NCBI GenBank assembly: GCA_945876285.1
Contig: CAMCNO010000007.1
Span: 1-64,000, forward strand
Length of the DNA: 64,000 bases
DNA from: an uncultured Clostridia bacterium
Lineage (GTDB): Bacteria; Bacillota; Clostridia; Oscillospirales; Oscillospiraceae
Direction of reading: 5' to 3'
Shown here: piece by piece, positions 21,679-56,950 of the stretch
How positions within the stretch are numbered: the first letter of the stretch is position 1
How the letters are laid out: every line of letters starts with the position of its first letter
Program-made: the position numbers and the translations under genes
The notes under the pieces: generated by a model
What the model saw: the letters and a program-made list of their open reading frames with translations, nothing else
The model's database searches: none
What the model was told of the DNA's origin: nothing

Positions 21679-21707
21679 ATGATACCATGGGGCTTTTTTC
21701 AAATTTC
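21679..21707 (-). promoter_or_regulatory. Regulon promoter element, site A
   Basis: Minus strand AAATTTGAAAA, with TTGAAA separated by exactly 12 nt from TATCAT. The element ends 28 nt before the corrected GTG at 21650. Confidence 0.75.
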
Positions 21708-21720
21708 GCAACTGCGGCAA

Positions 21721-22356
21721 TCAGGCGGAAGCATTGCTGTGGATGGATTCTCCGCCGAACATCGACAGGGTCAGCAGGCAGTTTTCATCGTCGGTCAGCA
21801 GGGCGCAGTCCAGAGGGGCCACCGGCAGGATGCGGCCGTTGGGGAGATCGATGTAGCTCCAGCTCTCCGGCGTGTCCAGCCCGTGGGGGTCTACGCCGTA
21901 TTCCAGCAGGGCCTCCAGAGCGCCCACTGCCCCGGTCAGAGCGAACAGACAGGCGGCGCTGAGCTGGCCGGTCCGTGCAAGCAGGCAGCTTTGCAGTACC
22001 TCCGGGGTAAAGGGAGGCAGGCAGAGGTTGCTGAACCGGATGGCGTTGATGGAGTATTTCCGGCTCTTAAGAAACAGCTGGGGAAACCGGGGATAGAGCA
22101 GGTCAACCAGTGGGACCGCATCATGTTCGGCGATGTGGGTCAGAAGCTCCTCGGCGGTGGGCGGTTTCCTGCCGTCCAGGAGGGTCAACAGGTTTTTCAC
22201 CTCTTGTTCGGGGAGGTTTTCTTCCAACCAGAGGCGGGTGAGCCGAGACTCCATTTCCTTCTGCGTCTCGCCCCGGCCTTCCCCCTTGTACCAGGCGAAG
22301 CGGTTGGAGGCGTTGACGTCCAGACGGTCGTTATCAGGCACAATTTTACAGAGCAT
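21721..22356 (-). CDS. Short ankyrin-family protein (family member 2)
   Basis: 211 aa. One recognisable ankyrin-like unit near the C-terminus (CLFALTGAVGALEALLEYGV then DPHGL), followed by PLDCALLTDDENCLLTL. It looks like the C-terminal half of the longer family members, but has its own start, overlapping the upstream gene stop by 11 bp (TATGCTCTGTAA). A regulon element lies just downstream, before the next gene. Confidence 0.7.
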   Translation of the reverse strand: MLCKIVPDNDRLDVNASNRFAWYKGEGRGETQKEMESRLTRLWLEENLPEQEVKNLLTLLDGRKPPTAEELLTHIAEHDAVPLVDLLYPRFPQLFLKSRKYSINAIRFSNLCLPPFTPEVLQSCLLARTGQLSAACLFALTGAVGALEALLEYGVDPHGLDTPESWSYIDLPNGRILPVAPLDCALLTDDENCLLTLSMFGGESIHSNASA

Positions 22357-23788: not shown

Positions 23789-23820
23789 AGGATATCACAG
23801 GGGCCTTTTCAAAATTGATA
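23789..23820 (-). promoter_or_regulatory. Regulon promoter element, site B
   Basis: Minus strand AATTTTGAAAA with TTGAAA-N12-TATCCT, 42 nt before ATG 23746. Confidence 0.75.
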
Positions 23821-23852
23821 AGTTCGAGGGGATCGTTTAAGCTGCGCACTTG

Positions 23853-23882
23853 TGAACTTTGAAAAGGACTATCCGGTAAGCT
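23853..23882 (+). promoter_or_regulatory. Regulon promoter element, site I
   Basis: Plus strand GAACTTTGAAAAGG, TTGAAA-N12-TAAGCT. It lies 140 bp upstream of the clpP element, so either clpP has two such promoters or this one drives a short separate transcript. Confidence 0.6.
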
Positions 23883-23993
23883 GTGTTCAGAAACGCTGGT
23901 GAAGGGGGACAGCGAAGCGATACCATGAAAAAAGACCGCCTGCCAACACCCATCTGCTGGCAAGCGGCGTGCAAGGCAATGTGCCCGACTAAC

Positions 23994-24022
23994 GAAATTT
24001 GAAAAAACGCCCCTGTTATCAT
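23994..24022 (+). promoter_or_regulatory. Regulon promoter element, site C (clpP)
   Basis: AAATTTGAAAAAACG, TTGAAA-N12-TATCAT, 33 nt before clpP ATG. The TTG that the track uses as clpP start is part of this element. Confidence 0.75.
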
Positions 24023-24055: not shown

Positions 24056-24649
24056 ATGTTTACAATGCCCTATGTGATCGAAGGCAAGGACGGCCGCGGG
24101 TACGACATCTTCTCCCGCCTGCTGAAGGACCGCATCGTACTGCTCACCGGTCAGGTGAACGACGAGACGGCGGCGGCCGTGGTGGCCCAGCTGCTGTATC
24201 TGGAGGCAGAGGACCCGGAGAAGGACATCTCCCTGTACATCAACAGCCCCGGCGGCTCCGTCACTGCGGGTCTGGCCATTCTGGACACCATGGAGCACAT
24301 CCGCTGCGACGTGTCTACCATCGCCGTGGGTATGGCGGCCTCCATGGGCGCGGTGCTGCTGGCGGCAGGCGCCAAGGGCAAGCGCCGGGTGCTGCCCAAC
24401 GCCGAGGTCATGATCCATCAGCCTCTGGGCGGCGCCGAGGGTCAGGCGTCCGACGTACTGATTCGGGCAAGGCACCTGGAGCGGACCCGCATCCGGCTGA
24501 CGAACCTGCTGGCGGAGTACACCGGCAAGGACCGGGAGCAGCTGGCGGCGGACATGGATCGGGACAACTTCATGAACGCAGAGGAGACGGTGGCCTACGG
24601 CCTGGCGGACGAGGTGGTGAAGCAGGGGACTGCCCCCAGCGCCGCCTGA
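24056..24649 (+). CDS. clpP: ClpP-type serine protease subunit, without a Clp ATPase neighbour
   Basis: 197 aa from ATG 24056 ([10 protein letters not shown]) with CGGAGG upstream. It has the complete ClpP core with the catalytic triad S96 (GMAASMGA), H121 (MIHQPLGG) and D170 (DMDRDNF), matching standard ClpP spacing, so it should form an active tetradecamer. It heads an operon with a small membrane protein, a VWA protein, a MoxR ATPase and ankyrin genes rather than with clpX. It shares the regulon promoter. Therefore probably a specialised second ClpP, possibly working with a AAA+ ATPase of the locus; that pairing is inference. Confidence 0.92.
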
Positions 24650-24668: not shown

Positions 24669-24851
24669 ATGGAACTGGATATCCTGTATCGGCTGAGCAT
24701 GCTGGTAGGTTTCCTGCTGGCGGGATTTCTCGCCCTGCTCATCGCAGGCGCTGCCGCGCTGATCTGCCATTGCAGCAAGAAAGCCTTCCGGGAGCTGGAC
24801 AAAGCCATGAAGGAGCTGGAGGAGGTGTGCAAGGATGAGCTTGAATCCTGA
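24669..24851 (+). CDS. Small single-pass membrane protein (60 aa)
   Basis: One long hydrophobic helix (MLVGFLLAGFLALLIAGAAALI) followed by a charged amphipathic tail (KKAFRELDKAMKELEEVCKDE). AAGGAG precedes the ATG. It overlaps the VWA gene by 17 bp. Not recognised; could tether the VWA/MoxR complex or ClpP to the membrane, but that is only a guess from position. Confidence 0.75.
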   Translation: MELDILYRLSMLVGFLLAGFLALLIAGAAALICHCSKKAFRELDKAMKELEEVCKDELES

Positions 24852-26148
24852 GCTGGACAAGCAGGCACGGGAGATCATCGAGTGGTCCCGGCGGAAGCTG
24901 GTGACCAGGCTGCCGGAGTTCCTGCCCGCCATCTACCTGCTGCCCCTGCGGTGCGCTGAGCCGGAGCAGTCCCTGTGGACCGACGGCGAGACCATCTTCT
25001 ACCACCCTGAGACGGTGGTGCGGGACTACCTGCAGCGCAAGGACTCCATCGCCGCCCAGCTCATGCACATCACGGCCCACGGCCTGCTGGGCCACATTCC
25101 CAAGCGGCGGGGACAGCAGCCCCAGCTCTTTGACGCCGTGGCAGATGCCCAGGCGGCCAGCCTGGTGGAGAAGCTGCCCGCATCTCTGACACCCTCGTGG
25201 AAGCGGGAGACCCGGGACCATGTGGAGGCCCTGAGCCAGCTGACCCTAGAGGCCGCCTACCTGACGCCGGAGACCCGGGAGGAGGCCGAGGAGCTGGTTC
25301 GCAAAAGCCAGCCCCTGCGCATGGACGATCACGAGGCCTGGACGGTGTCTGCCGAACAGAAAAGCGCTTCCGCGGCGGGGGAGCTGTGGAAGGCGGCTGC
25401 CCGCCAGGTGGCCGAGGCCATGGTCAAGTCCGGCAAGCGGGACCAGTACGGCGACGTGGCAGGCATGATCTGCGACGAATTCCGCAACGTGGAGGAGAGC
25501 GGCGTCAGCTACAAGGAGTTCCTGCGGCGGTTCTGCTCCAGACAGGAGCGGCAGGAGGTAGACCCGGACTCCATCAACGCCGTCTGGTACCGGGTGGGAA
25601 TGGACCTGACCGGCAGCGCGCCCTTCATCGAGCCGGAGGAGCTGCGGGAGGACGCCCCGGCATTGGACCTGGCGGTGGCGCTGGACACTTCCGGCTCCTG
25701 CAGCGGCGACACCATGAAGGGCTTTCTGGAGGAGCTGATGGCCATTGTGCGGGATGCCGGAGGCCCCAAGGTGGAGATGACCCTGATCCAGTGCGACGCG
25801 GAGATCCAGAAGGTGCAGACCATCGGCAAGGAGGACTCCGTGGAAGACCTGATGGAGAACTTCGAGGTTTACGGATACGGCGGCACGGACTTCCGCCCGG
25901 TGTTCGATTACGTGAATCAGCAGCGTGAGGAACCGGACGGCAGGCGCTTCAAGGGCCTGCTGTACCTCTCCGACGGCTACGGGGATTTCCCCGAGCAGGC
26001 GCCGGACTACCCGGTGGCCTTCCTGTTCCCCAGAGACGAGGACGAGTGGGAGGGCGGCTGGTTTGAGATCCCCGAGTGGGTCACCCAGGTACGCATCACC
26101 CCGGACGACCGTCTGGTGATCAGCGAGAACAGCAAGAAGAGAAATTGA
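24835..26148 (+). CDS. VWA-like protein with degenerate metallopeptidase domain (copy 2)
   Basis: 437 aa, paralogue of 18908..20245 along its whole length. The N-terminal metallopeptidase-like domain reads LMHITAHGLLGH, again with the HExxH glutamate replaced (HITAH). The VWA MIDAS is intact (ALDTSGSCSGD, GGTDFRPVFDY, LYLSDGYGDFPEQ). The Asp/Gly-rich spacer of copy 1 is absent. Located directly upstream of its MoxR partner, as expected for MoxR-VWA pairs. Confidence 0.88.
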   Translation: MSLNPELDKQAREIIEWSRRKLVTRLPEFLPAIYLLPLRCAEPEQSLWTDGETIFYHPETVVRDYLQRKDSIAAQLMHITAHGLLGHIPKRRGQQPQLFDAVADAQAASLVEKLPASLTPSWKRETRDHVEALSQLTLEAAYLTPETREEAEELVRKSQPLRMDDHEAWTVSAEQKSASAAGELWKAAARQVAEAMVKSGKRDQYGDVAGMICDEFRNVEESGVSYKEFLRRFCSRQERQEVDPDSINAVWYRVGMDLTGSAPFIEPEELREDAPALDLAVALDTSGSCSGDTMKGFLEELMAIVRDAGGPKVEMTLIQCDAEIQKVQTIGKEDSVEDLMENFEVYGYGGTDFRPVFDYVNQQREEPDGRRFKGLLYLSDGYGDFPEQAPDYPVAFLFPRDEDEWEGGWFEIPEWVTQVRITPDDRLVISENSKKRN

Positions 26149-26178: not shown

Positions 26179-27411
26179 ATGAAATCTCAGGTAACTGTGA
26201 CTGTGAATATTCAGCAGGCCAAGGAAGCCCTGGCCCAGACGGCGGAGCTGTACTTCGCCAAGGACGCAGTGGGCAACTGGCGTCTGGACCGCAGGCGCGC
26301 CCGCCCGGTGTGCCTCATGGGCCCCGCGGGCATCGGCAAGACGGAGATCGTCCGCCAGGTGGCGGAGGAGCAGGGACTGGCCTTCCTGTCCTATTCCGTC
26401 ACCCACCACACCCGCCAGAGCGCCATCGGCCTGCCCCGTCTGACGGAGCGGCAGGTGGACGGCAAGACCGTCTGCGTGACGGAGTACACCCTCAGCGAGA
26501 TCGTGGCGGAGGTCTGGCGGGTCATGGAGGAGAGCGGAAAGGAGAAGGGCATCCTGTTCCTGGACGAGTTCAACTGCGCCAGCGAGACCCTGCGCCCCGC
26601 CATGCTGCAGCTGCTGCAGAGCAAGTCCTTCGGCCCCCACGCCCTGCCTGACGGCTGGATGCTGGTGCTGGCGGGCAACCCCGGCGAGTACAACGCCTCC
26701 GCCACCGCCCTGGACCCTGTCATGGCAGACCGTATGCGCCTGCTGTGGCTGGCGCCTGACTACGCCGCCTGGCGGGCCTACATGGTGGAGCGGGGCGTGC
26801 ATCCCATGGTGCTGTCCTATCTGGATGACCACCGCAGCCACTTCTACGTCTTTGAGAAGGACGGCGACGGCACGGGTCTGGTCACCGCCCGCGGTTGGGA
26901 GGACCTGTCCATCCTGCTGCGCATGATGGAGGAGAAGAACTTCCCCGTGGACCTGACCTTCGTGTCCCAGTTCCTCCAGTCCTCCAAGGTGGCCCGGGGC
27001 TTCTACACCTACTACGAGCAGTACAGCGAGCTGCTGCACTCCGGCATCATTGACCGTATCCTGCAGGGCGAGCGTCTGAAGGAGGCGGAGCAGGAGGTGA
27101 CGGAGATGGGATTCCCCCGGCGCTGGGCACTGACCTGCGTGCTGCTGCTGCGGCTGGAGAACCTGTGCGCGGACAAGAAGCCCGAGGCCGGCACGGCCAT
27201 GGAGACGGTGCTGCGGTTCTATCAGCACTGCGAGGCATGCCGTCCCAACCTGGAATTCCTGCTGAACGGCCTGACCAACAGCGATCCCTGCGCTCTGTAT
27301 ATCGCCGCCAACGGCTGCGAGACCTACCGGGCGCTGGTGGAGGAGCTGTTCTTCCGCAGCGACACCCCCTCCACGCGGAAGCTGAAGAGCCTTCTGGCAA
27401 AGGTCAGCTGA
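26179..27411 (+). CDS. MoxR-family AAA+ ATPase (copy 2)
   Basis: 410 aa. Walker A LMGPAGIGKTEIVRQ, Walker B GILFLDEFNCAS, sensor region MLVLAGNPGEYN. RBS CAGGAGG. Close paralogue of copy 1; conserved stretches such as SVTHHTRQSAIGLPRL are almost identical, while the C-terminal helical part is shorter. The gene order (VWA then MoxR) is the same as in copy 1, so the pair was duplicated and inverted around the clpP promoter region, or both arose from one ancestral cassette. Confidence 0.92.
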   Translation: MKSQVTVTVNIQQAKEALAQTAELYFAKDAVGNWRLDRRRARPVCLMGPAGIGKTEIVRQVAEEQGLAFLSYSVTHHTRQSAIGLPRLTERQVDGKTVCVTEYTLSEIVAEVWRVMEESGKEKGILFLDEFNCASETLRPAMLQLLQSKSFGPHALPDGWMLVLAGNPGEYNASATALDPVMADRMRLLWLAPDYAAWRAYMVERGVHPMVLSYLDDHRSHFYVFEKDGDGTGLVTARGWEDLSILLRMMEEKNFPVDLTFVSQFLQSSKVARGFYTYYEQYSELLHSGIIDRILQGERLKEAEQEVTEMGFPRRWALTCVLLLRLENLCADKKPEAGTAMETVLRFYQHCEACRPNLEFLLNGLTNSDPCALYIAANGCETYRALVEELFFRSDTPSTRKLKSLLAKVS

Positions 27412-27438: not shown

Positions 27439-29475
27439 ATGTTCTGGAACATGGAGGAAGCCCGGACGTTGGAGCAGGCCATCAGTCGGGGGAGGTATCC
27501 CAGCGCCTACGCTATGCTGCGCAAGCGGACGGAGCTGTTGACCAGGAGTGAAGCGGAGCCCTGCTTGCAGGCGGCGCTGTATCGCTCGCCCCTGCTGTTC
27601 CGCAGCCTTCTGGAGAAGTGCGTGCCGGGAGAGCATACCGGCAGCGTTCTTGTCAAGCTGGGAGAGGACACCGAGGCCCAGGTGGAGGGGACCCTGCTGG
27701 TGCTGGCCGCGGCGCTGGACCGACCGGACCTTGTGCGGATTCTGCTGGAAGCGGGCTATGACTGCAACAGTGCCGGACTGGCTACCCAGGAGGCGTACCT
27801 GTACGACCCCCATGGCGACCCTGTCCCACAGCTGCGCCCCGGAAGCCGGAGCGGCATCAGAAACAACACCATCTCCGTGATGGGAAAACGGAATGCCATC
27901 ATCTCCTGCGCCACGCCACTGGCTGCCGCGGTGGCCTGCGGCAGCCGCCGGGCGGCATCCGTGCTGCTGGGCTGGCCCGGCGTCTGGAAGGAGGAGAGCA
28001 GCGCGGTCTGCCGTGCCGCTGTGCTGGCGCTGGAGCTGTATCGGGGCGATCCCCGTCAGACCGTGGTGGGACGGGTGTTCGGCGTTCCGCCCTCTGAAGT
28101 GGAGCGGCTGCCGGTGACTCGCTGCCTCCATGCAGGGAACTTCGTGGATTTCTGCGAAGCGGAGCTTCTGCAGAGCCAACTGGAGCATGGATTCTGCGGG
28201 GAGGAGGATGTCAGAGATGCCTTTCAGTTGATGGACGAGCGGATCGAGGTGCCGGACTTTGTCCCCAAGCTCCGCCTGCTGGAACGGCACTTTCCCCACC
28301 TGTGCCGGGAGCGGGCAGCCAGGGACATGGTGCTGCATTATGCAGTGCGGCACTTCCCAGACTGCGACTGGCAGGGCCCCCTGGAGGCATGGAAGTGCCT
28401 CAGCGGGGAAGAGGGGGACCTGAGCGTGGTCAGCATGCAGCTGCGGGAGCTGCCCGACACGCAGCTGCGGCAGTTTTTGCAGGCACTGGGACCGGACATG
28501 CGGCTGGTCATGGACGCGGACTCCTTTGCCCCCGGCTACGTGGAGTCCAAAACCGCTGTGATACGGCTGCTGAAACGGGTCCGCCTGCGGTATAACCAGG
28601 GGCTGGACGGCATCAGCAGCCTGACGCTGAATCTGGTGCAGGGCAGTGTCCGCCGGTTTTGGGAGGCGGCCCGCTTGGGCGCCCTCCGGGGGGAGGACCC
28701 GGTGCGCCTGACCCAGTATCTTCGGCAGGAGGACCGCCAGGACCTGATGGCCGCTGCACTGGCCTATGGCGGGGGACTGCAGGAGGAAGACGTGCCCTGG
28801 AAAACCGCGACATCCGTCACCCACTGGTCCCGCTGCTGGCTTATCAGTTGGGACGATTATCAGCAATGGCTGCAGGAACTGGCATGTCAGGAACTGCCGG
28901 AGGAGGAGTGCCTGCGCCGCCTGCGCATGATGTGGGACCCTGCCTTTTTCAACGCATACTACATCAATGAAGAGCTGCTTCTGCCGGGGGAATCTGGCGA
29001 AGTGCGACTCACGGTGACCAGGCCGGAGACGGCGCTGTTCTGCGGGACACAGGTGCAGCCTGTGCGGCTGGCCCTGCGATACATGCCGGAGGTTTTTCGG
29101 ATGCAGTATTTCCTGCGGCATGAGGATGCTCAACTGGACCTGCGAGGAACGCCTTTGTGCCTGGCAGCTGCCATGGGACGGACGACCACGGTCAGGTTCC
29201 TGCTGGACGCGGGTTTTTCGCCCGATGAGTACGGCAGCGGCGTGGCTTCTGCCGTCTACAGGCGTTGGGATGACGACCCCTGCTGTGTGACCCCGCTGAT
29301 GGCGGCGATGTTGTTTGGGCAGGAGGAGACCGCCCGGCTGCTGCTGGATGCAGGGGCGGAGATGTGTTTTCAGAGCCGGAAATACCAGCCGCTGCTGGAC
29401 CACTGCGGTCAAAAGGATCTGGCTGAGCGCCTGCTGAAAAACGCAGCGGCGCAGAGAAATGAGGTGAAGGAATGA
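27439..29475 (+). CDS. Large divergent ankyrin-repeat protein (family member 4)
   Basis: 678 aa. Family blocks in order: EHTGSVLV, ankyrin unit GTLLVLAAALDRPDLVRILL then EAGYDCNSAG, ATPLAAAVACGSRRAASVLL with WPGVWKEESSAVCRA, LQSQLEHGFC, LVMDADS, LLKRVRLRYNQG, then a C-terminal ankyrin pair GTPLCLAAAMGRTTTVRFLL and TPLMAAMLFGQEETARLLL. No enzymatic motif. GGGAGG precedes the ATG. Overlaps the next gene by 4 bp. Most similar to member 10 (56991..59120). Confidence 0.85.
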   Translation: MFWNMEEARTLEQAISRGRYPSAYAMLRKRTELLTRSEAEPCLQAALYRSPLLFRSLLEKCVPGEHTGSVLVKLGEDTEAQVEGTLLVLAAALDRPDLVRILLEAGYDCNSAGLATQEAYLYDPHGDPVPQLRPGSRSGIRNNTISVMGKRNAIISCATPLAAAVACGSRRAASVLLGWPGVWKEESSAVCRAAVLALELYRGDPRQTVVGRVFGVPPSEVERLPVTRCLHAGNFVDFCEAELLQSQLEHGFCGEEDVRDAFQLMDERIEVPDFVPKLRLLERHFPHLCRERAARDMVLHYAVRHFPDCDWQGPLEAWKCLSGEEGDLSVVSMQLRELPDTQLRQFLQALGPDMRLVMDADSFAPGYVESKTAVIRLLKRVRLRYNQGLDGISSLTLNLVQGSVRRFWEAARLGALRGEDPVRLTQYLRQEDRQDLMAAALAYGGGLQEEDVPWKTATSVTHWSRCWLISWDDYQQWLQELACQELPEEECLRRLRMMWDPAFFNAYYINEELLLPGESGEVRLTVTRPETALFCGTQVQPVRLALRYMPEVFRMQYFLRHEDAQLDLRGTPLCLAAAMGRTTTVRFLLDAGFSPDEYGSGVASAVYRRWDDDPCCVTPLMAAMLFGQEETARLLLDAGAEMCFQSRKYQPLLDHCGQKDLAERLLKNAAAQRNEVKE

Positions 29476-30596
29476 TTCGAGTCCGACTAGTCAGCGAGCC
29501 GGAATACCGGCGGATGCTGAAGGAGGGGACCTGCGCGGTATATGGAGAATGGCAGTTCTGCCGCTTGCTGGACGAAGGGCGAGATTTCTCCGATGAGGCC
29601 AGCCGGGCGCTGCTGCGGGAGCTCCATGGGGATACCATGGCGGACAAGTGCTGCCGGCGGGTGACCCAGGCGGGTAAGCCCTGCCTGCCAGCCCTCTCCT
29701 CGGAGGCGAAATACGGCCTGACCGCGCTGGTAAACTCGGCAGACGGGGTCTACACCATCATGGAAGCACGATTCTTTCCCTACGAGACAGGCGCCCGCCT
29801 GGACCACGTGGGCAAATTCCGAAACTACGGCTATCCCATGCTCTGGGATGTGTTTTCCGCTCTGGAACAGGATGTGCTGTTTGCGCTGCGGGCGAAGGAT
29901 ATTCCCTTCATGGGCACTGTTCATCTGGGCACTGACTTTCTGCTGGAGAACTATCCGTGGCACGGCGTGCCCACCATGGCGTGGGTGGAGGAGAGACGCC
30001 TGGGAGCAACGGAGCAGGACGGCATGCTGCGGGTGAGCAACAGCTTTCACCGCCTGCGCTTCGACTGGACACAGGACACGGAGGAGGTGTTGGACACGCT
30101 GCGCCGTCTGACCCATCCGCCCATGCCGCTGGCCTGCGGCGAGATGTCTCTGGACGGGTTTCGACGCATGTGCAGGGCGTGTCTGGGCGAGCCGGACGAT
30201 CCGAAAACAGATGGGGAGCCCGCAAGGCCGGACATGCGGGTGTTCAACCACATGGCCTATCTGCCGGACGCCCACCGCCCGGAGCTGATGGTCGTTGAGG
30301 CCCATGACGACGGGCGCTGCCGCCTGGACCGCTGTTTTTCGGAGAACCATCCGTCCTACCTGGACCTGCTGGCGCAGGTCATGGACCTCGCCATTCCCGA
30401 CGGTGAGGTGGTCGTGCTGGCGGTGGACACGGACGAGCCGATGCACTCTGCCAGAGACATCGAAAGAGCGATGTGCGCGTTTCGGCTTGTGGGCCGGACC
30501 GTGGAGACCTACGGGCGGCAGGAGGGCCTGCAGGTATTTGAGGAGACCCTTCGCCGGGCCTGCGGTCGAGCTGCAAAGGAAGCAGAGCCGGAATAA
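29472..30596 (+). CDS. Unknown ~375-aa protein, copy 1
   Basis: 374 aa, family not recognised. Begins MIRVRLVSEPEYRRML; conserved with copy 2 (36688..37827) in motifs such as AKYGLTA, DFLLENYP, VFNHMAYLP, VLAVDTDE and the end block SARDIERAMCAFR. No membrane segment or clear active site. In both copies it follows, with a 4-bp overlap, an ankyrin gene, so the two probably function together. Convergent with the WYL gene. Confidence 0.8.
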   Translation: MIRVRLVSEPEYRRMLKEGTCAVYGEWQFCRLLDEGRDFSDEASRALLRELHGDTMADKCCRRVTQAGKPCLPALSSEAKYGLTALVNSADGVYTIMEARFFPYETGARLDHVGKFRNYGYPMLWDVFSALEQDVLFALRAKDIPFMGTVHLGTDFLLENYPWHGVPTMAWVEERRLGATEQDGMLRVSNSFHRLRFDWTQDTEEVLDTLRRLTHPPMPLACGEMSLDGFRRMCRACLGEPDDPKTDGEPARPDMRVFNHMAYLPDAHRPELMVVEAHDDGRCRLDRCFSENHPSYLDLLAQVMDLAIPDGEVVVLAVDTDEPMHSARDIERAMCAFRLVGRTVETYGRQEGLQVFEETLRRACGRAAKEAEPE

Positions 30597-30651: not shown

Positions 30652-32115
30652 TCAATCTTCGCCGTATTGCTTTGCGGCGGCCTTCAGGGTCTTCTTGATT
30701 TCATCCCGGAGGGACTGGGGCTCCAGGACCTCCACCCGGTCCATATACTGGAGGGCAAAGAGCCGGGTGCCGGACTCCGAGGCCCGTACAAAGACCTCGG
30801 TGTACCCGTCCTTGGGCGTGGAATAGCTGGTGATGGTGGTGCCGAAGAAGTCCATCAGGGTGCTCAGAAGGGACGTCTCACAGCGCAGGCGGGTCAGCAC
30901 CGGCGTGCCGGGGTACATGACGGGGGAGCGGTCCCGGTATTCGTAGGCATCGAAGTTTTTATCCGGCTCAAAGGCTTCCGTGGTGGGGAAGACCTCCATG
31001 ATGCGGTCCAGTCTCAGGTTCCGCATGCCGCCGTCCTTCACCCGCTTGCAGACCAGGTAATAGTAGCCGTTGGACCACATCATGGCGTAAGGCTCTACCA
31101 CCATGGGACGGTCGCCCAGCGCCGTCAGCTCCGGCTGCCATTTGCCGCTCTTCATGGACAACTGGTACTGGCCGTACCGGATGCCCACCTTATGCTTGTC
31201 CCGGATGGCCTGGTCCAGCTGTTCAATATGCTCGAACTGCACGGCGGAGGGCGTTTTTTTCGCATAGCGGTTGCCGCTCCAGTTCCGTACGCCGGGGGCC
31301 ATCCGCTGCATGGCAGACAGGAACTTCTGGGTCTGGGCCTCGCTGATGTAGGGGTAGACCAGGATCAGATCGGAGAGCATCCGCCACTCCGCGGGAGACA
31401 GGACGCTGGACAGGTAGTATCTGCGGGGCGGACTGATGGGCTCGTTTTTCTTCCTGGAAGCGGCGTTCCGGTTTCCGGCTGTTTTGGGAGGGTCCGGCGC
31501 TTTGGCCTTCAGCTCCCATTGGGAGGCGGGGATGTACTGATAGCCGGTGCTGCCGCGGCGCACCGCCACCACGCCGGCCAGAGAGATGGGCGGGGCTTCC
31601 GGGAAGACCGAGTCATCCGTCTCCTCCTCGCCGTCCTGCACCCCGTTCGCCTCGCGGTACTGCTTCATCAGCTGGGGGAGCTTGTTGTTCAGCGTGTTCT
31701 GGGAAACAGGGTTGGCGGAGCTTTCCAGAAAGACGGCGTTCATTTCGTACTCGTCGGGGGACAGGGGCTTCCCGGTGGGGCCTTCCATCACCACATGGAG
31801 CTTGCCCTGGTGGGTATAGGCTTGGACGATGGTATCCTTGCCCGCCTCGCACAGCACAGTATTGGGGAACAGAGTGTTAAAGACATCCGCGTCGATGGGG
31901 AAGTGCTTGGCAAGGGTGTTTCGCCGGGTCCCCTCCGCGCCTTTGTCCAGATATTCCAGAATTTGTCCCGAGGTCAGGGGATGCTCCGCGGAGGCGTGGG
32001 CGGCCAGGACGTTCCAGATGTCCGTCAGGGTCTTGATGGTATTGCTGTAGGAACCGCGGCTGTTGTCCTGCTTTTCCGCTGGGGCTTCCTTCTTTTTAGG
32101 GGCCTTGTTATTCAT
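30652..32115 (-). CDS. WYL-domain transcriptional regulator
   Basis: 487 aa from ATG 32115 (MNNKAPKKKEAPAEK) with GGGAGG upstream; the 718-aa track ORF is an extension through the divergent promoter. The N-terminus is Lys-rich, then a helical part that could hold a winged helix (LTDIWNVLAAHASAEHPLTSG). The WYL domain (about 320-420) shows VVEPYAMMWSNGYYYLVC and MRNLRLDRIMEV, where the WYL signature residues sit in the ligand pocket; the C-terminal WCX-like extension ends LRDEIKKTLKAAAKQYGED. WYL regulators such as PafBC, BrxR and CapW control DNA-damage or defence genes. The only recognised transcription factor in the locus, and itself behind a canonical promoter. Confidence 0.85.
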   Translation of the reverse strand: MNNKAPKKKEAPAEKQDNSRGSYSNTIKTLTDIWNVLAAHASAEHPLTSGQILEYLDKGAEGTRRNTLAKHFPIDADVFNTLFPNTVLCEAGKDTIVQAYTHQGKLHVVMEGPTGKPLSPDEYEMNAVFLESSANPVSQNTLNNKLPQLMKQYREANGVQDGEEETDDSVFPEAPPISLAGVVAVRRGSTGYQYIPASQWELKAKAPDPPKTAGNRNAASRKKNEPISPPRRYYLSSVLSPAEWRMLSDLILVYPYISEAQTQKFLSAMQRMAPGVRNWSGNRYAKKTPSAVQFEHIEQLDQAIRDKHKVGIRYGQYQLSMKSGKWQPELTALGDRPMVVEPYAMMWSNGYYYLVCKRVKDGGMRNLRLDRIMEVFPTTEAFEPDKNFDAYEYRDRSPVMYPGTPVLTRLRCETSLLSTLMDFFGTTITSYSTPKDGYTEVFVRASESGTRLFALQYMDRVEVLEPQSLRDEIKKTLKAAAKQYGED

Positions 32116-32140: not shown

Positions 32141-32169
32141 AGTATAACGCCGCAGTCGCCGCAAAACAA
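32141..32169 (-). promoter_or_regulatory. Sigma-A promoter of the WYL gene
   Basis: Minus strand TTGTTT, 17-nt spacer, TATACT, 25 nt before the ATG. It lies back to back with regulon site D. Confidence 0.65.
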
Positions 32170-32179
32170 GACACTTGCC

Positions 32180-32207
32180 AAATTTGAAAATAGAAAGACA
32201 GTACACT
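32180..32207 (+). promoter_or_regulatory. Regulon promoter element, site D
   Basis: AAATTTGAAAA, TTGAAA-N12-TACACT, 25 nt before ATG 32233. Confidence 0.75.
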
Positions 32208-40836: not shown

Positions 40837-40919
40837 ACTGGAAGGATGCCTGCAGAGCCGGCGGCCCTTCACGGCACATTTCCGGACAGGGACTTTTTGT
40901 CAAATACTGATGGAATTTG

Positions 40920-40948
40920 TTGCATCGAAGCGGCAATGTTCTTATACT
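40920..40948 (+). promoter_or_regulatory. Sigma-A promoter of the AddB-like/AddA-like operon
   Basis: TTGCAT, 17-nt spacer, TATACT, 34 nt upstream of the corrected GTG start. Confidence 0.6.
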
Positions 40949-40982
40949 GGAAGCAGACAATCGAAACGGGAGGAAACAACCT

Positions 40983-43721
40983 GTGAGAGAAGCATATTTG
41001 AAGAATTTGGCGTCAGCACTGCAGCAGCACCAGCCGCAGGAGACCATTCTGGTCATGGGAAGCCGTGCGGAGGGGCGCAGAGCGCTGGCCGCGTTGGCTG
41101 CTCAGGGCAATCTGATCATCGGCGTCCGGCCTGAGACCCCGTTTTCTCTGGCGCAGGAGCTGTGCGCAGACCAGCTCTCGGCAGCCGGAGCACCCCGCCT
41201 GCTTTCGGAGGCGGAGGCGGCGGACCTGGTGCGCAGCTGCATGAGAAAAAGCGCTGGTATTTACAGCGGTGCCAATGTAAGAACCTTGACAGCGGCGCGC
41301 ACCGTGTTCCGCACATTCCAGGAGATGGCCATGGCGAATGTCCCGGAGGAGCTGGAGGCGCATCCGGCCGTGCAGAGCTCCGGGAAGCTGCGGGAGCTGC
41401 AGGCCATCCGCAGCGCATACCGGGAAGCGAAGCGGGAGAAAAACCTGCTGGACCGGGCGGACCTGTTCCACCTGGCCATCGAGACAGCCAAAGCCCAACC
41501 GGGCAAGGCGCGCCGCCCCTGGTTCGTCACCGTGGGCGACTACGCCCCCACGCCCCTGGAGCGGGAGCTGCTGGATCTGCTGGCGGGGGACCGTCTGACG
41601 GTGGTGGAGCTGCCCTGCGCCGATGGGGTGAAGCTGCCCGCAGACGCACTGTCCCCGTCGCTTCCCCGGGCGGACGTGCTGGAGGCTGTGCGGAGCGCCC
41701 AACCCCGCTTTGCGGCCTGCCGGGGCGTGGAGACAGAGGTGCGCGCCCTGTTCCGGGATCTGCTGGCAGACAAGGAAATCAAGCTGGAGGAGTGCACCGT
41801 GGTGTATCTCTCCGGTAGCTATGCCCAGACGCTGTATGAGGAGGCGGCGCGGTTCCATATCCCTGTCTCCATGGGCGGGGGCCTGTCCATGGCGGGGAGC
41901 TTGCTCTATTCCACCTTGAAGGCGGTGGCGGAGCTGCCCCGGACAGACTTTTATGCAGAAGACGTGTGTGGCCTGCTGGAGTCCTTCTGCCTGACGCCGG
42001 AGTGGCCCGTCAAGCTGGCGGAGCGCATGCGGGCCAAGAAGGTGGGCTGGGGCAAGGCCCGGTACAGTCTGGCCTGTGACCCCGAAGACATCGACAAAGT
42101 CCGCCCCGAGACCATGGGCGACGAGGCGTGGAGACTGCTGGTGGAGGATTGGAGTGGCTTCCTCACGCTGCTGACGGAAGTGGCGGAGCCGACCGTCGGC
42201 TTGGAGCGGCAGCAGGAGGACTTGCTGAACTTCCTGCGTTACTGCAACCACAAGAGCATGGCGGAGGCCGCGGCTCTGGCCAAGGCCCGGGAGCTGGTGA
42301 CCCAGGTGTCCGAGCTGGACGAAGGCGAGACGCTGCTGCGCCGCCTGCTGGTGCTGATGGAGGGCGCCTCGTACCTGGGCGGCGCCCCGGAGCCGGGCAA
42401 GCTGTACTGCGCGCCCTTGTCTCAGGCGGCCTTTGCGGAGAGAAAGCGGCTGTATGTGCTGGGCCTGAGCCGGTACGCGGTGCGGGGAGAGCAGAAGGAG
42501 TCCCCAGTGCTGCTGGACGCGGAGCGGACGGCCCTCGGCGGTCTGAAGACCTCCGCCCAGCTGGGGGAGGAGCGGGAATACCGCCTGATGACCCTGCTGG
42601 CCCGCCATGCGGGTGAGCTGGTGATGACCTATCCGAATTTTGACAGCGACAAGCTGCTGGAGCAAGCTCCCGCGCCGTTCTTTGAGGAGGCCAGCAAGGG
42701 GTTCCCTGTTGTCCCCGTCTCTTACATTCCTGAAACGGACCTGATTCCCATGGACTGCATGGCCTCCGCACAGGAGTTGGACGCCATCACCGGGGCGAAG
42801 CCCTGGACGCTCCAGGATGGCGAGAAGACGGAACTGCAGGAGCAAAAGACCGTCAAGGAGCTGCTGGAGGGTATGACGCTGTCTCCCTCCGCGCTGGAGA
42901 CGGCGCTGCGCTGCCCGTATCAGTTCTATCTGCAATATCTGCTGCGTATCCGTACCCCGCAGGCGGTGGAGCGGAACGACCAGCGGTGGCTTGCCCCCAA
43001 TGAGACCGGCGACTTCGTCCATGTCGTGTTGCAGGAAATCTATAAGAAGGACCAGACGAAGCAGTGGGAGGAGGTCTTTGAGGAGAAATTTGAAGGCCTG
43101 GAAAAGACTGTCCCACTGCCCCATAAACGGTTGAAGGACGAGGCCAGGCAGACGCTGAAGGAGATGGTGCGGCGGGCCGTGAAGTGGACGGCTGACAACC
43201 AGCGGACTGTGGAGTCTGTGGAGCAGCGCTTCGAGGACCTGCCCCTGACCCTGGGCCAGTGGAACCTCCGGATGAAGGGCAGCATCGACCGGGTGGACAA
43301 GCTGCCCAACGGCGAGCTGGCAATTCTGGATTACAAGACCGGAAGAATAGAGAACTACACAGAGGCGATGTACCGTCACCTGCAGCATTACCTGTACACC
43401 CTGGCGGAGGAGCAGCTGCATGGCACCTCCATCACCCAGGCGGGGTATCTGTTCCTGAAGGAGGAGGCCAAGCTGGTGCCTCTGGAGGAGAACAAGGCTC
43501 TGCGGGAAGAGATGGAGGAGCGGATCACCTGGCTGCTGGACCGCATTTCCTACGAGGACTATGCCATGGAGTACCAGCCCTGCTTTGTGCCCCAGCGCGA
43601 TGACGACGGGAACCCCATCCCCGGGGCACTGGAGAGCAGCGATAACAAGGAAGCCTTGAAAAACTGTAAGAAGACTTGTGAGTTTGCGGCGCTATGCACC
43701 GCACAGCTGAGAAAGAGGTGA
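40983..43721 (+). CDS. AddB-like protein with PD-(D/E)XK nuclease and predicted Fe-S site
   Basis: 912 aa from GTG 40983 (VREAYLKNL), chosen for GGGAGG upstream; the track start at a TTG lies over the promoter. The N-terminal part resembles the inactive helicase half of AddB but has no Walker A lysine (VMGSRAEGRRAL). The C-terminal nuclease domain shows GDFVHVVLQEIY, SIDRVDKLPNGE and ILDYKTGRIENY (about 782). Cysteines in RCPYQFYLQYLL (about 643) and the end CKKTCEFAALC suit the AddB 4Fe-4S arrangement. It is shorter than usual AddB. Paired with the AddA-like gene 4 bp downstream, so they probably form a heterodimeric double-strand-end nuclease. Confidence 0.85.
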   Translation: MREAYLKNLASALQQHQPQETILVMGSRAEGRRALAALAAQGNLIIGVRPETPFSLAQELCADQLSAAGAPRLLSEAEAADLVRSCMRKSAGIYSGANVRTLTAARTVFRTFQEMAMANVPEELEAHPAVQSSGKLRELQAIRSAYREAKREKNLLDRADLFHLAIETAKAQPGKARRPWFVTVGDYAPTPLERELLDLLAGDRLTVVELPCADGVKLPADALSPSLPRADVLEAVRSAQPRFAACRGVETEVRALFRDLLADKEIKLEECTVVYLSGSYAQTLYEEAARFHIPVSMGGGLSMAGSLLYSTLKAVAELPRTDFYAEDVCGLLESFCLTPEWPVKLAERMRAKKVGWGKARYSLACDPEDIDKVRPETMGDEAWRLLVEDWSGFLTLLTEVAEPTVGLERQQEDLLNFLRYCNHKSMAEAAALAKARELVTQVSELDEGETLLRRLLVLMEGASYLGGAPEPGKLYCAPLSQAAFAERKRLYVLGLSRYAVRGEQKESPVLLDAERTALGGLKTSAQLGEEREYRLMTLLARHAGELVMTYPNFDSDKLLEQAPAPFFEEASKGFPVVPVSYIPETDLIPMDCMASAQELDAITGAKPWTLQDGEKTELQEQKTVKELLEGMTLSPSALETALRCPYQFYLQYLLRIRTPQAVERNDQRWLAPNETGDFVHVVLQEIYKKDQTKQWEEVFEEKFEGLEKTVPLPHKRLKDEARQTLKEMVRRAVKWTADNQRTVESVEQRFEDLPLTLGQWNLRMKGSIDRVDKLPNGELAILDYKTGRIENYTEAMYRHLQHYLYTLAEEQLHGTSITQAGYLFLKEEAKLVPLEENKALREEMEERITWLLDRISYEDYAMEYQPCFVPQRDDDGNPIPGALESSDNKEALKNCKKTCEFAALCTAQLRKR

Positions 43722-43725
43722 TCGT

Positions 43726-46700
43726 GTGAGCGAGTTAAGGATTTGCAGCCCCGAAGAGCTTGAGGAACAAGCGAAGGAATATAGCTGCCCGGAAGGTGAG
43801 GAGGGCACCAAGCCGGAAGGGGAACAGGCGGCTGAGCAGAATCCTGCGAAAAAGCGGGGAAGACCCAAGAAGGCGGATGCGGCGCCTGCGCTCAGCAAGG
43901 AGGAAAAGAAAGAGCAGGAGCGCAAAAAGAAGGAGGAGCAGAAGCGCAAGGAGCGGGAGGAACGGGAAAAGCAGACCCTCGAAAAGCTGAAGGCGGAAGC
44001 CGCGGCACAGGTGGACAAGACCAGCCCGGAGATTGAGGCGGAGGAGGCCCTCCGGAAAAAGCTGATGGGCGTGGACTTCACAAAAGAGGATTTCCGGAAC
44101 AGCCCCAACTATCTGGTGGAGGCCGGCGCCGGCGCGGGAAAGACCACCATTATGGTGGAGCGCATCGTCAACCAGCTGGTCAGCGGCTTTTGTAAGCCGG
44201 AGGAGCTAGTGGCCATCACCTTCACCAACAAGTCCACGCTGGAGATGCGGGAGCGGCTGGACAAGCTGCTGCTGAAGCGTCTGGAATCGCTGCGGTGGAA
44301 GGCCGCCGACGGGGAGACGCTGACCGGGGAGGAGCAGGCGCGGCTGGAGCGGCTGGAGACCCTGGTGCAGGAGAGCGGGCGGATGCAGGTCAGCACCATC
44401 CACAGCTTCTGCCAGACCATGCTGGAATCCATGCCCTTCTCCTCGCCGCTGGGCCTGGATATGCAGGTGATGGACGATGACGGGGAACTGGCAAAGGCGT
44501 TTTTGAAGCGCAAATGGCGGGAAAAGCAGCGCCCCTTTGATATCCCTCTCCGGCTGGGCGTGAAGTACCATGTTTTGGAGCAGGCTTATCTGGACTGCTG
44601 CAAGAGCGGATGCGCCGCAGGCTATTCGGATGTCAGCAGCCCGGAGGTCAGACAGTGGGAACAGGATGTGAGAAGCGGCCTGCAGAGCCTGCAGCAGGAG
44701 CTGTACGCCCTGACCGTGGATGTCCCCGAGCTGCGGGAGGAGCTGCGGGAGATCATGACCATGACGCCCGCGGCCTTTGCGGCGGATGAGGAAGCAAATC
44801 AAAGCCTGCTCCAGTTGTGCCTGTACAATCCGGAGCACTTTCCCCTGGATTGGGAGGTCAAGGAAACCGACGTCAAGACAGAGATCTGGTCCGGCGCGGA
44901 TGGCGTGGCCGTCGATCAGGTCTGGCTGGGTCAATCTGCGAACCACCTTCGCAATTCCGCCCGTCTGATGCTTCACAGCTGTGTGATGCGGGATGCGGCG
45001 GTGCTGGCGGAGGAATACCGCCGGGAGAAGCTGGAGCGCCATATCGCCACCTACGATGACCTGCTGCTCCACACCCGCGATATGCTGCGGGACAAGCCGG
45101 AGGCCCGGGCCTTTTTCCATAACCGCTACAAGGCGGTGTACGTGGATGAGATGCAGGATACGGATCCTGTCCAGACGGAGCTGTTGTTCTACCTGACCAC
45201 AGCGGAGGAAGATTATGACGGGACAAATTGGAAGAACTGCAGACCCGTTCCCGGCAGCCTCTTCCTGGTAGGCGACCCCAAGCAGGCCATCTACCGCTTC
45301 CGGGGTGCGGATATCGGTGTGTACAACGACCTGCTGGAGCTGTTCCGGAGTCGGGAGGACAATGACGGAAAGCCCGGCTCGGCAGGGGAGAAGGTCACCC
45401 TGCACTTCAACTTCCGCAGCTCCTCGGAGATCTGCGCTCTGGCGGACCGCGTTTTCGCACCAAACGCTGCGAGCCCGGACGAATACCGGTTCGTGGGCGG
45501 CAAATACCATGCGGAGTACGCGTCCATGCTGGCCAGAAACGGCAGTTGTTCCCGTGCCCGCACGCTGTATTGCGGAAAGGGCTTTAGCGTTGACCGGGTC
45601 GCCGCGTTTATCTATCTCATGATCGAAAACAGACAGTATGTGGGCATTCATCGGCCCAAATACGGCAGAAACGCCCATCCCGCACAGCCGGAGGACTTCC
45701 TGATCCTGACCCAGGAGAGAGATCAGGTGCAGAAATTTGAGAAGGCGCTGCAGAATTTAGGCATCCCGGTAGAGGGTACGGGTGTGAAAAGCTTCCGCGA
45801 TACCGCGCCCATCGGCCGGGCGGTGCTGCATTTGCAGTCCCTGCTGTCCCCCCGGGACGATCAGAAGCTGCTGATGGTCCTGCGCATGTGCTACGGAATC
45901 CAGGACCTGGAGGCCCTGGCCTTCCTGCAGCGGACAGGCTCCTTCTCTCTCACCGGCGCGGTCAGGAAGGAGCATCTGGAAAGGGCCCAGCGCGGGTTGG
46001 CGGCGGAGATTCTGAAGCTGAAGCAGGAACTGGATCAGACGCAGGACCAGGTCAAGAAGCTGGAGTTGGAGGACGAGAAGGAGCAGCTGGAGAAGCTGCT
46101 GCAGGTGTGCACCGCCCTGGAGGAGATCGTAGAGCTTCGGAAGCTGAGCAGAACACAGCCGGCTATGGCAGTGATCGAGCGGTTGCTGGAGGGCGGCTTC
46201 GGCGTTTGGGACGGTCAGGAGGTCTTGAACCTGATCCAGCGCCGACAGGCGGTTTCTGCCGTACAGCAATATCTGAATCTGGTGCGCGGCAGCAAAGAGC
46301 ACAGCTTCCGGGCCCTGGCGGCCTATGCCGTGGCCTGCGCCGACAAGGAGTTCGAGCATGCACTACCGCTGGAGTCCTCCGGGGGAGCGGTGCGGGTCAT
46401 GAATCTGCACAAGGCCAAGGGTCTGGAGGCGGAGATCGTGATTCTTGCCTATAGTGGCCGAGAGGAGCACCCGGTTACCGACCATGTGGAGCGGGCCGGG
46501 GGAATGGCTGCCAAATACCGTCTGCTGCAGGATGGATTTAAATATAGCCGTATTACGATCGGAGAGCCTGCCAATTGGGATACATACTGCGAGGAAGAGA
46601 CCCGGCACAAGACGGCGGAATATGCCCGGCTGCTGTATGTGGCCGCCACCCGCGCCAAGACCATGCTCATCGTCTGTGGCAATGATGGGGAGGAGGATAA

Positions 46701-47781
46701 GGACTACTGGCTGCCTCTGCGGAAGGGACTGCAGGTGTTAAGCGAGAGCGACGTGACATACGGCGCTGAACTCAAGGCGCTGGACCGCAAGCCAAGTGGA
46801 CTTCCGAACGCCGCGCAGGGAAAGCAGGCTGATTCACAGAATGGAACGAAGGTGGCCGTAGATTCCGACGCCATGGAAAAGGCACTTCGGGAGAGCGCCG
46901 CTTCGCTGGCGGAAAGCGGGTTCTATGCCATCACACCCAGCCAGCTCAACCACCACGCCCGGGGCGTCATCAACAAGCGGGACGAGGAGGAGTCGGACAC
47001 CACGGACACTGCCGCTGTGGCGGACCTGGTGGACCACAGCGATGCGGAGCAGGAAAGCGAAGCACTCCAGAAAGCTGTCCCGGAGCCTGCCGAAGCCGCG
47101 ACCCCGGGACCCTATGGCCCCGATTGGGGCACCATCGTCCACCGGGTCATGGAGCTGGCTGTGCGGGAAAACTGCTTTACAGAGCAGGAACTGGAGACCT
47201 TTGCCCGCAGAGCAGTCATCGAACAATTGCCAGACGGCCTTGTGAACGCCGCCCAGCGGAGGATGCTGCGGCTGGAGGAGGCTGAGACCGGCGCGGAGGT
47301 CATCGACCGGCTGACCGTTCAGGCCGCGCAGGCTGCCGCCTTCCTGCTGCAGGAGGACTGCCCACTGCGAAACCTCCTGACGGGCGGAGAGGGGTATCCT
47401 GAGCTGCCCTTCTTCCTGCAGGCCGGAGAGGATTCCGGCGAGCTGTACCGTCATCTGACAGCCCATGCCACCAGTAATCAGGCCCAGGGCCGCACGCTGG
47501 CGGTGGAGGGCGTCATCGACCTGGCCATCCGGAAAGACGGCGCCTGGTATGTGGTGGACTACAAGACCGACAAACTCCGCTCCGGAGAGTCGGAGGAGAA
47601 GTTCATCCAGCGGCTGAAGGACGAGTACACGCCCCAGATCACCGCCTACGCCCGGGTCCTGGAACGAATGAACATGGGCAGGACAGAGAAGGCGTGGCTG
47701 TGTTCCATTCCGCTGAAGGGCCGGCTCATCGAACTGGACATTGCCCCCAGAGGAGAGAGCGCCGCGAAAACGGCGGAATAA
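43726..47781 (+). CDS. AddA-like UvrD-type helicase-nuclease with Lys-rich N-terminal extension
   Basis: 1351 aa from GTG 43726. SF1A helicase motifs: Walker A VEAGAGAGKTT (about 134), Ia AITFTNKST, II VDEMQDTDPVQTE (about 473), III LVGDPKQAIYRFRGAD, V VMNLHKAKGLEAE, VI LLYVAATRAKTM. The C-terminal nuclease has GTIVHRVMEL, GVIDLAIRKDGAWYVVDYKTDKL (about 1278). The first 110 residues are unusual: an AT-hook-like KKRGRPKK followed by a highly charged coiled coil (EEKKEQERKKKEEQKRKERE). With the preceding AddB-like protein it should unwind and degrade DNA ends. Whether it is the housekeeping AddAB or an accessory copy cannot be decided here. Confidence 0.9.
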   Translation: MSELRICSPEELEEQAKEYSCPEGEEGTKPEGEQAAEQNPAKKRGRPKKADAAPALSKEEKKEQERKKKEEQKRKEREEREKQTLEKLKAEAAAQVDKTSPEIEAEEALRKKLMGVDFTKEDFRNSPNYLVEAGAGAGKTTIMVERIVNQLVSGFCKPEELVAITFTNKSTLEMRERLDKLLLKRLESLRWKAADGETLTGEEQARLERLETLVQESGRMQVSTIHSFCQTMLESMPFSSPLGLDMQVMDDDGELAKAFLKRKWREKQRPFDIPLRLGVKYHVLEQAYLDCCKSGCAAGYSDVSSPEVRQWEQDVRSGLQSLQQELYALTVDVPELREELREIMTMTPAAFAADEEANQSLLQLCLYNPEHFPLDWEVKETDVKTEIWSGADGVAVDQVWLGQSANHLRNSARLMLHSCVMRDAAVLAEEYRREKLERHIATYDDLLLHTRDMLRDKPEARAFFHNRYKAVYVDEMQDTDPVQTELLFYLTTAEEDYDGTNWKNCRPVPGSLFLVGDPKQAIYRFRGADIGVYNDLLELFRSREDNDGKPGSAGEKVTLHFNFRSSSEICALADRVFAPNAASPDEYRFVGGKYHAEYASMLARNGSCSRARTLYCGKGFSVDRVAAFIYLMIENRQYVGIHRPKYGRNAHPAQPEDFLILTQERDQVQKFEKALQNLGIPVEGTGVKSFRDTAPIGRAVLHLQSLLSPRDDQKLLMVLRMCYGIQDLEALAFLQRTGSFSLTGAVRKEHLERAQRGLAAEILKLKQELDQTQDQVKKLELEDEKEQLEKLLQVCTALEEIVELRKLSRTQPAMAVIERLLEGGFGVWDGQEVLNLIQRRQAVSAVQQYLNLVRGSKEHSFRALAAYAVACADKEFEHALPLESSGGAVRVMNLHKAKGLEAEIVILAYSGREEHPVTDHVERAGGMAAKYRLLQDGFKYSRITIGEPANWDTYCEEETRHKTAEYARLLYVAATRAKTMLIVCGNDGEEDKDYWLPLRKGLQVLSESDVTYGAELKALDRKPSGLPNAAQGKQADSQNGTKVAVDSDAMEKALRESAASLAESGFYAITPSQLNHHARGVINKRDEEESDTTDTAAVADLVDHSDAEQESEALQKAVPEPAEAATPGPYGPDWGTIVHRVMELAVRENCFTEQELETFARRAVIEQLPDGLVNAAQRRMLRLEEAETGAEVIDRLTVQAAQAAAFLLQEDCPLRNLLTGGEGYPELPFFLQAGEDSGELYRHLTAHATSNQAQGRTLAVEGVIDLAIRKDGAWYVVDYKTDKLRSGESEEKFIQRLKDEYTPQITAYARVLERMNMGRTEKAWLCSIPLKGRLIELDIAPRGESAAKTAE

Positions 47782-47810
47782 GAAACCAGCGTGAAACTGC
47801 GCTGACTTGC

Positions 47811-47839
47811 GAATTTTGAAACCACGCCTCCTGTATGCT
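47811..47839 (+). promoter_or_regulatory. Regulon promoter element, site E
   Basis: GAATTTTGAAA, TTGAAA-N12-TATGCT, 26 nt before ATG 47866. Confidence 0.75.
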
Positions 47840-50096: not shown

Positions 50097-50174
50097 GGAA
50101 ACTCCCTTCTTTTGTTTGGCATGTTGCGCCATGCCTGCGATTTTTGTATGTACGGCTTTACCGGAGAGAGGCGC

Positions 50175-51105: not shown

Positions 51106-51134
51106 AGCTTATCAGACAGGTTTTTTCAAATTTG
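51106..51134 (-). promoter_or_regulatory. Regulon promoter element, site G
   Basis: Minus strand AAATTTGAAAAAA, TTGAAA-N12-TAAGCT, 61 nt before ATG 51044. Divergent from site F, with about 35 bp between them. Confidence 0.75.
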
Positions 51135-51169
51135 GTGAGTATCATAGAAAGCGGACATGCCGGAGTGAC

Positions 51170-51198
51170 CAAATTTGAAAACGGCGTCATGGTATGCT
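51170..51198 (+). promoter_or_regulatory. Regulon promoter element, site F
   Basis: AAATTTGAAAACGG, TTGAAA-N12-TATGCT, 17 nt before ATG 51216. Confidence 0.75.
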
Positions 51199-53797: not shown

Positions 53798-53911
53798 ATT
53801 TCATCCACTCCTTTGCCGGATTTCGCCTTCATGATACCAACCGGGGACAGGCTCCGTCAAGGAAATTTGACCCTGCCGAGGCGGATGCCTGTCGAAGTCT
53901 GTCGCACTGAT

Positions 53912-53940
53912 GAAATTTGAAAACGGCCTTATGGTAAGGT
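53912..53940 (+). promoter_or_regulatory. Regulon promoter element, site H
   Basis: AAATTTGAAAACGG, TTGAAA-N12-TAAGGT, 36 nt before the TTG start at 53977. Confidence 0.75.
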
Positions 53941-56887: not shown

Positions 56888-56921
56888 GCCGGGCGCAGAA
56901 TGGTGCAGTGCTGCCGCTGAT

Positions 56922-56950
56922 CAAATTTGGACAGAACATGGGTGTACAGT
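56922..56950 (+). promoter_or_regulatory. Regulon promoter element, site J (diverged)
   Basis: CAAATTTGGAC, TTGGAC-N12-TACAGT, 40 nt before ATG 56991. Spacing kept although the GAAA part is altered. Confidence 0.65.

Follow-up and report, generated by a model that had tools for sequence, protein, structure and literature searches.

Single-stranded DNA (ssDNA) is the signal of the WYL proteins DriD, SiwR and PafBC, and an 8-nt spacing separates the PafBC motif from the TANNNT that follows it. DriD of Caulobacter crescentus is a homodimeric activator (PMC12340889). SiwR of Mycobacterium smegmatis is also a homodimer, which has a 19-bp imperfect palindrome as its site and needs the -26 region (PMC10693628). 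PafBC is a heterodimer with a -26 motif (PMC11804915, PMC10693628). BrxR and CapW are WYL regulators of defence loci which act as repressors (PMC9122601, PMC9122589, PMC9122588). Furthermore, MoxR-vWA pairs have been described as the core of proposed conflict systems (PMC7159879).

The window analysed here comprises 64,000 nucleotides (bases 1-64000 of an 81.8-kb contig) of the genome of a gut bacterium (2.29 Mb, 85.5% complete). It includes an island of 36 kb in which ten promoters share one common unusual sequence, as well as one gene for a WYL regulator (Table 1). The original prediction saw in this WYL protein the probable activator of the whole locus. We keep this reading, with a probability of roughly 80%, as a prediction from the co-occurrence of gene and sites, the restriction of the sites to the locus and the absence of -35 elements.

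Table 1. The WYL regulator, its promoter, the shared promoter sites and the AddAB-like pair, in window coordinates
Feature	Position	Strand	Context
Site AGTTGCGAAATTTGAAA-N12-TATCAT	21679..21713	-	before 20235-21650, VWA (ORF 18908-20392), MoxR 17439-18911 and AAA 15612-17438
Site ACTTATCAATTTTGAAA-N12-TATCCT	23789..23823	-	before 22346-23746 and 21721-22356
Site ACTTGTGAACTTTGAAA-N12-TAAGCT	23848..23882	+	apparent tandem upstream promoter of clpP
Site ACTAACGAAATTTGAAA-N12-TATCAT	23988..24022	+	before clpP 24056-24649, VWA 24835-26148, MoxR 26179-27411, ankyrin 27439-29475 and 29472-30596
WYL regulator gene	30652..32115	-	ORF, ATG at 32115, 487 aa
WYL protein layout (residues)			HTH ~29-73; extra segment ~74-231; helical region from ~232; WYL 294-374; WCX 434-480
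-10 TATACT of WYL gene	32141..32146	-	from sequence; layout repeated before both WYL paralogues of G211
-35 TTGTTT of WYL gene	32164..32169	-	17 nt from the -10; 3 nt from site D
Site D, ACTTGCCAAATTTGAAA-N12-TACACT	32173..32207	+	before ankyrin gene 32233 and the same-strand run reaching the AddAB-like genes
AddAB-like helicase-nuclease pair, putative target operon	40917..47781	+	PDDEXK protein 40917-43721, UvrD+PDDEXK protein 43726-47781
Site ACTTGCGAATTTTGAAA-N12-TATGCT	47805..47839	+	before 47866-49173 (weak ankyrin match)
Site ACTCACCAAATTTGAAA-N12-TAAGCT	51106..51140	-	before 50175-51044 and NYN/LOTUS 49275-50132
Site AGTGACCAAATTTGAAA-N12-TATGCT	51164..51198	+	before 51216-51899
Site ACTGATGAAATTTGAAA-N12-TAAGGT	53906..53940	+	before ankyrin gene 53977-56082
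Site GCTGATCAAATTTGGAC-N12-TACAGT	56916..56950	+	before ankyrin gene 56991-59120; tenth and weakest site

The WYL domain (E 1.5e-9) was annotated by Pfam over its curated cut-off, and the WCX domain which follows it (E 2.6e-5) just over the cut-off. The N-terminal HTH was found by profile-profile comparison with hhalign against the HTH of ordinary WYL regulators (94.6% probability, pairwise E 7e-8). With WYL, WCX and the HTH helices all present, the protein belongs to class A, the WYL-domain transcription factors with an N-terminal HTH, which confirms the WYL-regulator identity given by the original prediction. Several further points of that prediction hold as well. No other scanned locus protein matches a transcription factor in Pfam, so that the WYL protein is the sole recognised one of the locus; the only other HTH that Pfam found in these proteins is the OST-HTH/LOTUS domain of the NYN nuclease. 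The WYL gene and site D are divergently arranged, and the gene is served by a canonical promoter of its own, TTGTTT-N17-TATACT, which precedes the WYL gene in the genome of the window (G000) and both copies in the family genome G211; in G236 the WYL gene is preceded by a canonical TTGACA-N17-TAAAAT. Since the WYL -35 and the divergent site are 3 nt apart in G000 and G211, an effect of the protein on its own gene is possible.

The expected structure of winged helix, WYL and WCX was recovered in part. In the AF2 model, WYL and WCX are confident (pLDDT ~80-94, with WCX at ~90), but the N-terminal half, modelled alone or within the whole protein, stays below 60 and its wing is not confidently modelled, so that we make no fold claim for the extra segment between the HTH and the WYL core. 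With this segment of ~150 aa, the helical region of the 487-aa protein begins at about residue 232, compared to residues 80-110 in other WYL regulators of the family, where it directly follows the HTH. It is shorter in the most distant orthologue, that of G247. For residues 74-205 (about 31500-31895), the low-confidence prediction gives two beta hairpins with a helix between them. The extra segment may serve as a second module for binding DNA or a partner.

Foldseek placed the WYL protein nearest to DriD (1e-10) and PafBC (1.4e-10), with BrxR/CapW at ~1e-5. The LRxDR arginines R368 and R371 are invariant in seven of seven orthologues; in the alignment they correspond to the arginine pair found in PafBC and DriD. 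Close relatives of the protein are found in Oscillibacter valericigenes An890 and in an uncultured Oscillospiraceae genome.

The ten sites, called A to J in the original prediction, are genuine. They read (A/G)CT-N4-AAATTTGA-like, then exactly 12 nt, then TANNNT. Allowing at most one mismatch, AAATTTGAAA occurs 12 times in the window versus 1.65 expected, and none of 100 shuffles reached 12. When site and -10 were scored together, all ten sites reached at least 28 bits and the next candidate 14.8; no site above 25 bits appeared in 20 random sequences with the dinucleotide transitions of the window. In pattern searches of the 2.29-Mb genome, AAATTTGAAA-N12-TANNNT was found without mismatch six times, always inside the window. 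Because the matrix was trained with the 12-nt spacing as a requirement, the unbiased test of the spacing is the plain 10-mer: TANNNT lies 12 nt after all six exact AAATTTGAAA copies of the window versus none of the 13 exact copies in the rest of the genome.

Eight of the ten sites are located 29-75 nt upstream of a plausible start codon of an ORF of at least 190 aa, and the site at 51164 is 18 nt before its start codon. Two sites stand in tandem before clpP (23848 and 23988), 140 nt apart. No ORF of at least 40 aa directly follows the site at 23848 or lies between the two, and the 23848 site has the look of an additional clpP promoter placed further upstream.

With the -10 hexamer numbered -12 to -7, the 17-bp site covers -41 to -25 with its centre at -33. 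It thus lies over the -35 element, at a distance to the -10 that is fixed in all sites, and its right half-site ends at about -26. The -35 hexamer at 17-nt spacing is AAAATT-like. Across 26 sites of six genomes, the best -35 at spacings of 16-18 matched on average 1.6 of six positions, versus 2.3 at random positions, and none of the sites matched four or more.

A site that overlaps the promoter could also belong to a repressor which, like BrxR/CapW, occupies the promoters and is released by a ligand, and most characterised WYL regulators beside defence systems do repress (PMC9122601, PMC9122588). A repressed promoter still needs a -35, however, and that of the 26 sites is worse than random; the operator of BrxR/CapW sits on an otherwise complete promoter, whereas the -35 is absent here. 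Repression would not need the rigid 12-nt distance to the -10 either, and the fold match is much nearer to the activators DriD and PafBC than to BrxR/CapW. For these three reasons we favour activation and consider repression unlikely.

We searched 401 genomes of the family for close WYL orthologues (above 180 bits) and found them in six, namely G000, G211, G129, G236, G183 and G247. The strict pattern CT-N4-AAATTTGA-N14-TANNNT was present in 28 of the 401 genomes, mostly as single hits, and a reversed control pattern also matched a number of genomes, so that a chance background exists for these counts. These 28 include five of the six WYL genomes (hypergeometric 6.7e-6), and in those five the sites share a contig with the WYL gene and precede homologues of the same genes of the island. 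In G129, which consists of one contig, all three pattern hits are at 135.7-140.0 kb and the WYL gene is at 140.0-141.3 kb, so that they are within ~6 kb of it. The sixth genome, G247, with a WYL protein 39% identical over the C-terminal part, was missed by the strict pattern. A matrix trained on the other genomes found there a single diverged site (26.1 bits), located between WYL and the VWA gene; its spacing is again 12 nt, and a ribosome-binding site is present.

None of seven other genomes of the same genus without a close WYL protein has the site, and six of the seven have neither a close nor a distant (>1e-15) one. The island MoxR (above 360 bits) is restricted to the same six genomes as the close WYL protein. 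Only a more distant MoxR (mostly 240-315 bits) occurs in ~60 genomes, including most of the same genus, generally without the site or a close WYL protein. The sites, the WYL gene and the island are thus inherited together. As the whole locus is co-inherited, co-occurrence alone does not single out the WYL protein among the island proteins, nor does it prove that this protein reads the sites.

Single pattern hits in G308, G331, G220 and G098 were read as chance, with no island genes around them and with low-scoring or intragenic sites. At the order level, WYL hits in G477 and G527 (~150 bits, C-terminal part only) had no site on the contigs examined, but gene calling worked poorly there and we draw no conclusion from these two genomes. 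No relatives of the WYL protein were found in viral contigs. G211 has a second WYL paralogue (L036:3021-6806, G211:C41), divergent from an ankyrin gene without a scoring site, and the binding specificity of this paralogue may have changed. One site of 33.6 bits in G014 (L079:6138-6172, G014:C53), a genome without a close WYL protein, precedes, together with a ribosome-binding site, a gene whose 250-aa product has no Pfam match.

The position of the motif in the -35 region and its strict spacing could be explained by an alternative sigma factor which uses it as its -35, or by a host factor with its gene outside the locus. The -10, though, has the ordinary TANNNT form, and no sigma factor was recognised among the scanned locus proteins. 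A host factor would leave unexplained why the perfect sites are confined to the island and why the pattern is absent from sister genomes without the WYL protein. We regard this explanation as quite unlikely.

Several co-inherited island proteins, among them 21721-22356, 50175-51044 and 51216-51899, have no Pfam or NCBIfam match, and one of them might bind the motif while the WYL protein has a different job. Such proteins were not seen in all of the site-bearing islands, unlike WYL, MoxR and VWA, which are present in every island with sites. Among WYL, MoxR, VWA and these candidates, the WYL protein alone has a DNA-binding domain, which makes a different island protein a very unlikely reader. 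The genome encodes a second WYL protein on another contig (G000:C10:69566-70336). It has the ordinary length of such regulators, but it is only 25% identical over the C-terminal part to the island protein, and proteins of that similarity are widespread in family genomes which lack the motif, so that it is hardly credible as the regulator.

Some evidence speaks against the island WYL protein as activator. The sites of the window form a weak inverted repeat, with 1.9 of 8 possible pairs, and those of G211 reach 1.8; the site is nearly palindromic in two relatives, with 5.0 pairs in G129 and 4.0 in G236. In addition, the strong G014 site is without a close WYL protein, and a scoring site is missing at the ankyrin gene of the second G211 paralogue.

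The original prediction likened the promoter layout to that of PafBC. This stands for the TANNNT, the lack of a usable -35 and the right half-site reaching -26; it does not stand for the position of the site, which is centred at -33, 12 nt before the TANNNT. PafBC resembles the system here in its HTH, WYL and WCX domains, its -10 without a usable -35, its arginine pair and its place as the second-best Foldseek match (PMC11804915, PMC6789036). However, it is a heterodimer which works at the -26 motif via sigma domain 4, and its two WYL subunits are encoded together, whereas the window has one WYL gene and the other is on another contig.

Judged by the sites, DriD comes nearest in layout, and the right half-site here extends into the -26 region on which SiwR and PafBC rely. 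DriD, the best Foldseek match, shares the HTH, WYL and WCX domains and the arginine pair, and likewise has sites centred on a very poor -35 at one fixed distance to the -10 (PMC12340889). Its half-sites are also separated by N7 (ATACGAC-N7-GTCGTAT, compared to GCTCA-N7-TGAGC in G129), and its gene is divergent from a target operon which it activates (PMC12340889). In contrast, the half-site sequences are unrelated, and symmetry is much weaker in the sites of the window. DriD controls a DNA damage response across the genome, with its sites spread among several promoters, whereas those described here are clustered in one island, and the ~150-aa segment after the HTH sets the window's protein apart. 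SiwR is comparable as a homodimeric WYL activator with a gene divergent from its target and a palindrome upstream of the -10, whose right half-site, as here, ends at about -26 (PMC10693628), but it is described for one two-gene operon.

We propose that the WYL protein would be a dedicated, locus-specific activator, expressed at a constant level from an ordinary promoter of its own. It would bind, with fair probability as a homodimer straddling the -35, to the ~17-bp site (centre about -33) which replaces the -35 element. The bound dimer would hold the housekeeping RNA polymerase at promoters whose sole core element is a -10, in many cases accompanied by a G at -14. In this way ten promoters would drive the ClpP, MoxR-VWA, AAA, ankyrin and AddAB-like island in parallel. 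Most likely, the conserved WYL arginines would bind a nucleic acid as the trigger, probably ssDNA arising through DNA damage or from invading DNA; the LRxDR arginines tip the balance slightly towards ssDNA as the ligand.

The island encodes ClpP, two MoxR-like ATPases, two VWA proteins, another AAA protein, several ankyrin proteins, an NYN/LOTUS protein and, as predicted for the neighbourhood of the regulator, the AddAB-like pair. AddAB-like genes are downstream of a site in G183 and G211 and, far downstream, in G000. Like the MoxR-vWA conflict systems, the island combines a conserved MoxR ATPase and VWA pair with variable partners, but the main text of that survey does not mention WYL regulation or ankyrin proteins, and the set with ClpP, ankyrin and AddAB-like proteins was not matched to a named subtype (PMC7159879). 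The scanned island proteins gave no more than weak PADLOC matches. A defensive or DNA-damage role of the island is plausible but unproven. At the end of the ankyrin cluster, 59341-62061 encodes a STAND-like protein of 906 aa with an AAA_16-type ATPase match and TPR repeats. A two-gene unit at 7281-12506, without such a motif site upstream, includes a 1586-aa helicase-like protein matching ZacC of PADLOC (E 4e-67), and a 47% identical partner adjoins the WYL gene in G129 (L033:1384-6123).

Tentatively, the locus could be a self-contained inducible island, in which one WYL activator with an added segment after the HTH reads a private promoter code that is absent from the rest of the genome, ssDNA switches on the ten promoters of a ClpP, MoxR-VWA, ankyrin and AddAB-like conflict system, and the island's own helicase-nuclease is able to alter the level of the signal; we consider this complete picture possible but rather doubtful. 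As regulator and sites travel together and the relative O. valericigenes An890 is a named strain, the prediction of the WYL protein as activator is cheap to test. If it is true, DriD-type activation, in which the activator straddles a missing -35, would extend to the Bacillota and to a dedicated island of multiple operons. The prediction would also provide a promoter code readable from sequence and point to the signal that turns on an uncharacterised ClpP, MoxR-VWA and ankyrin system.
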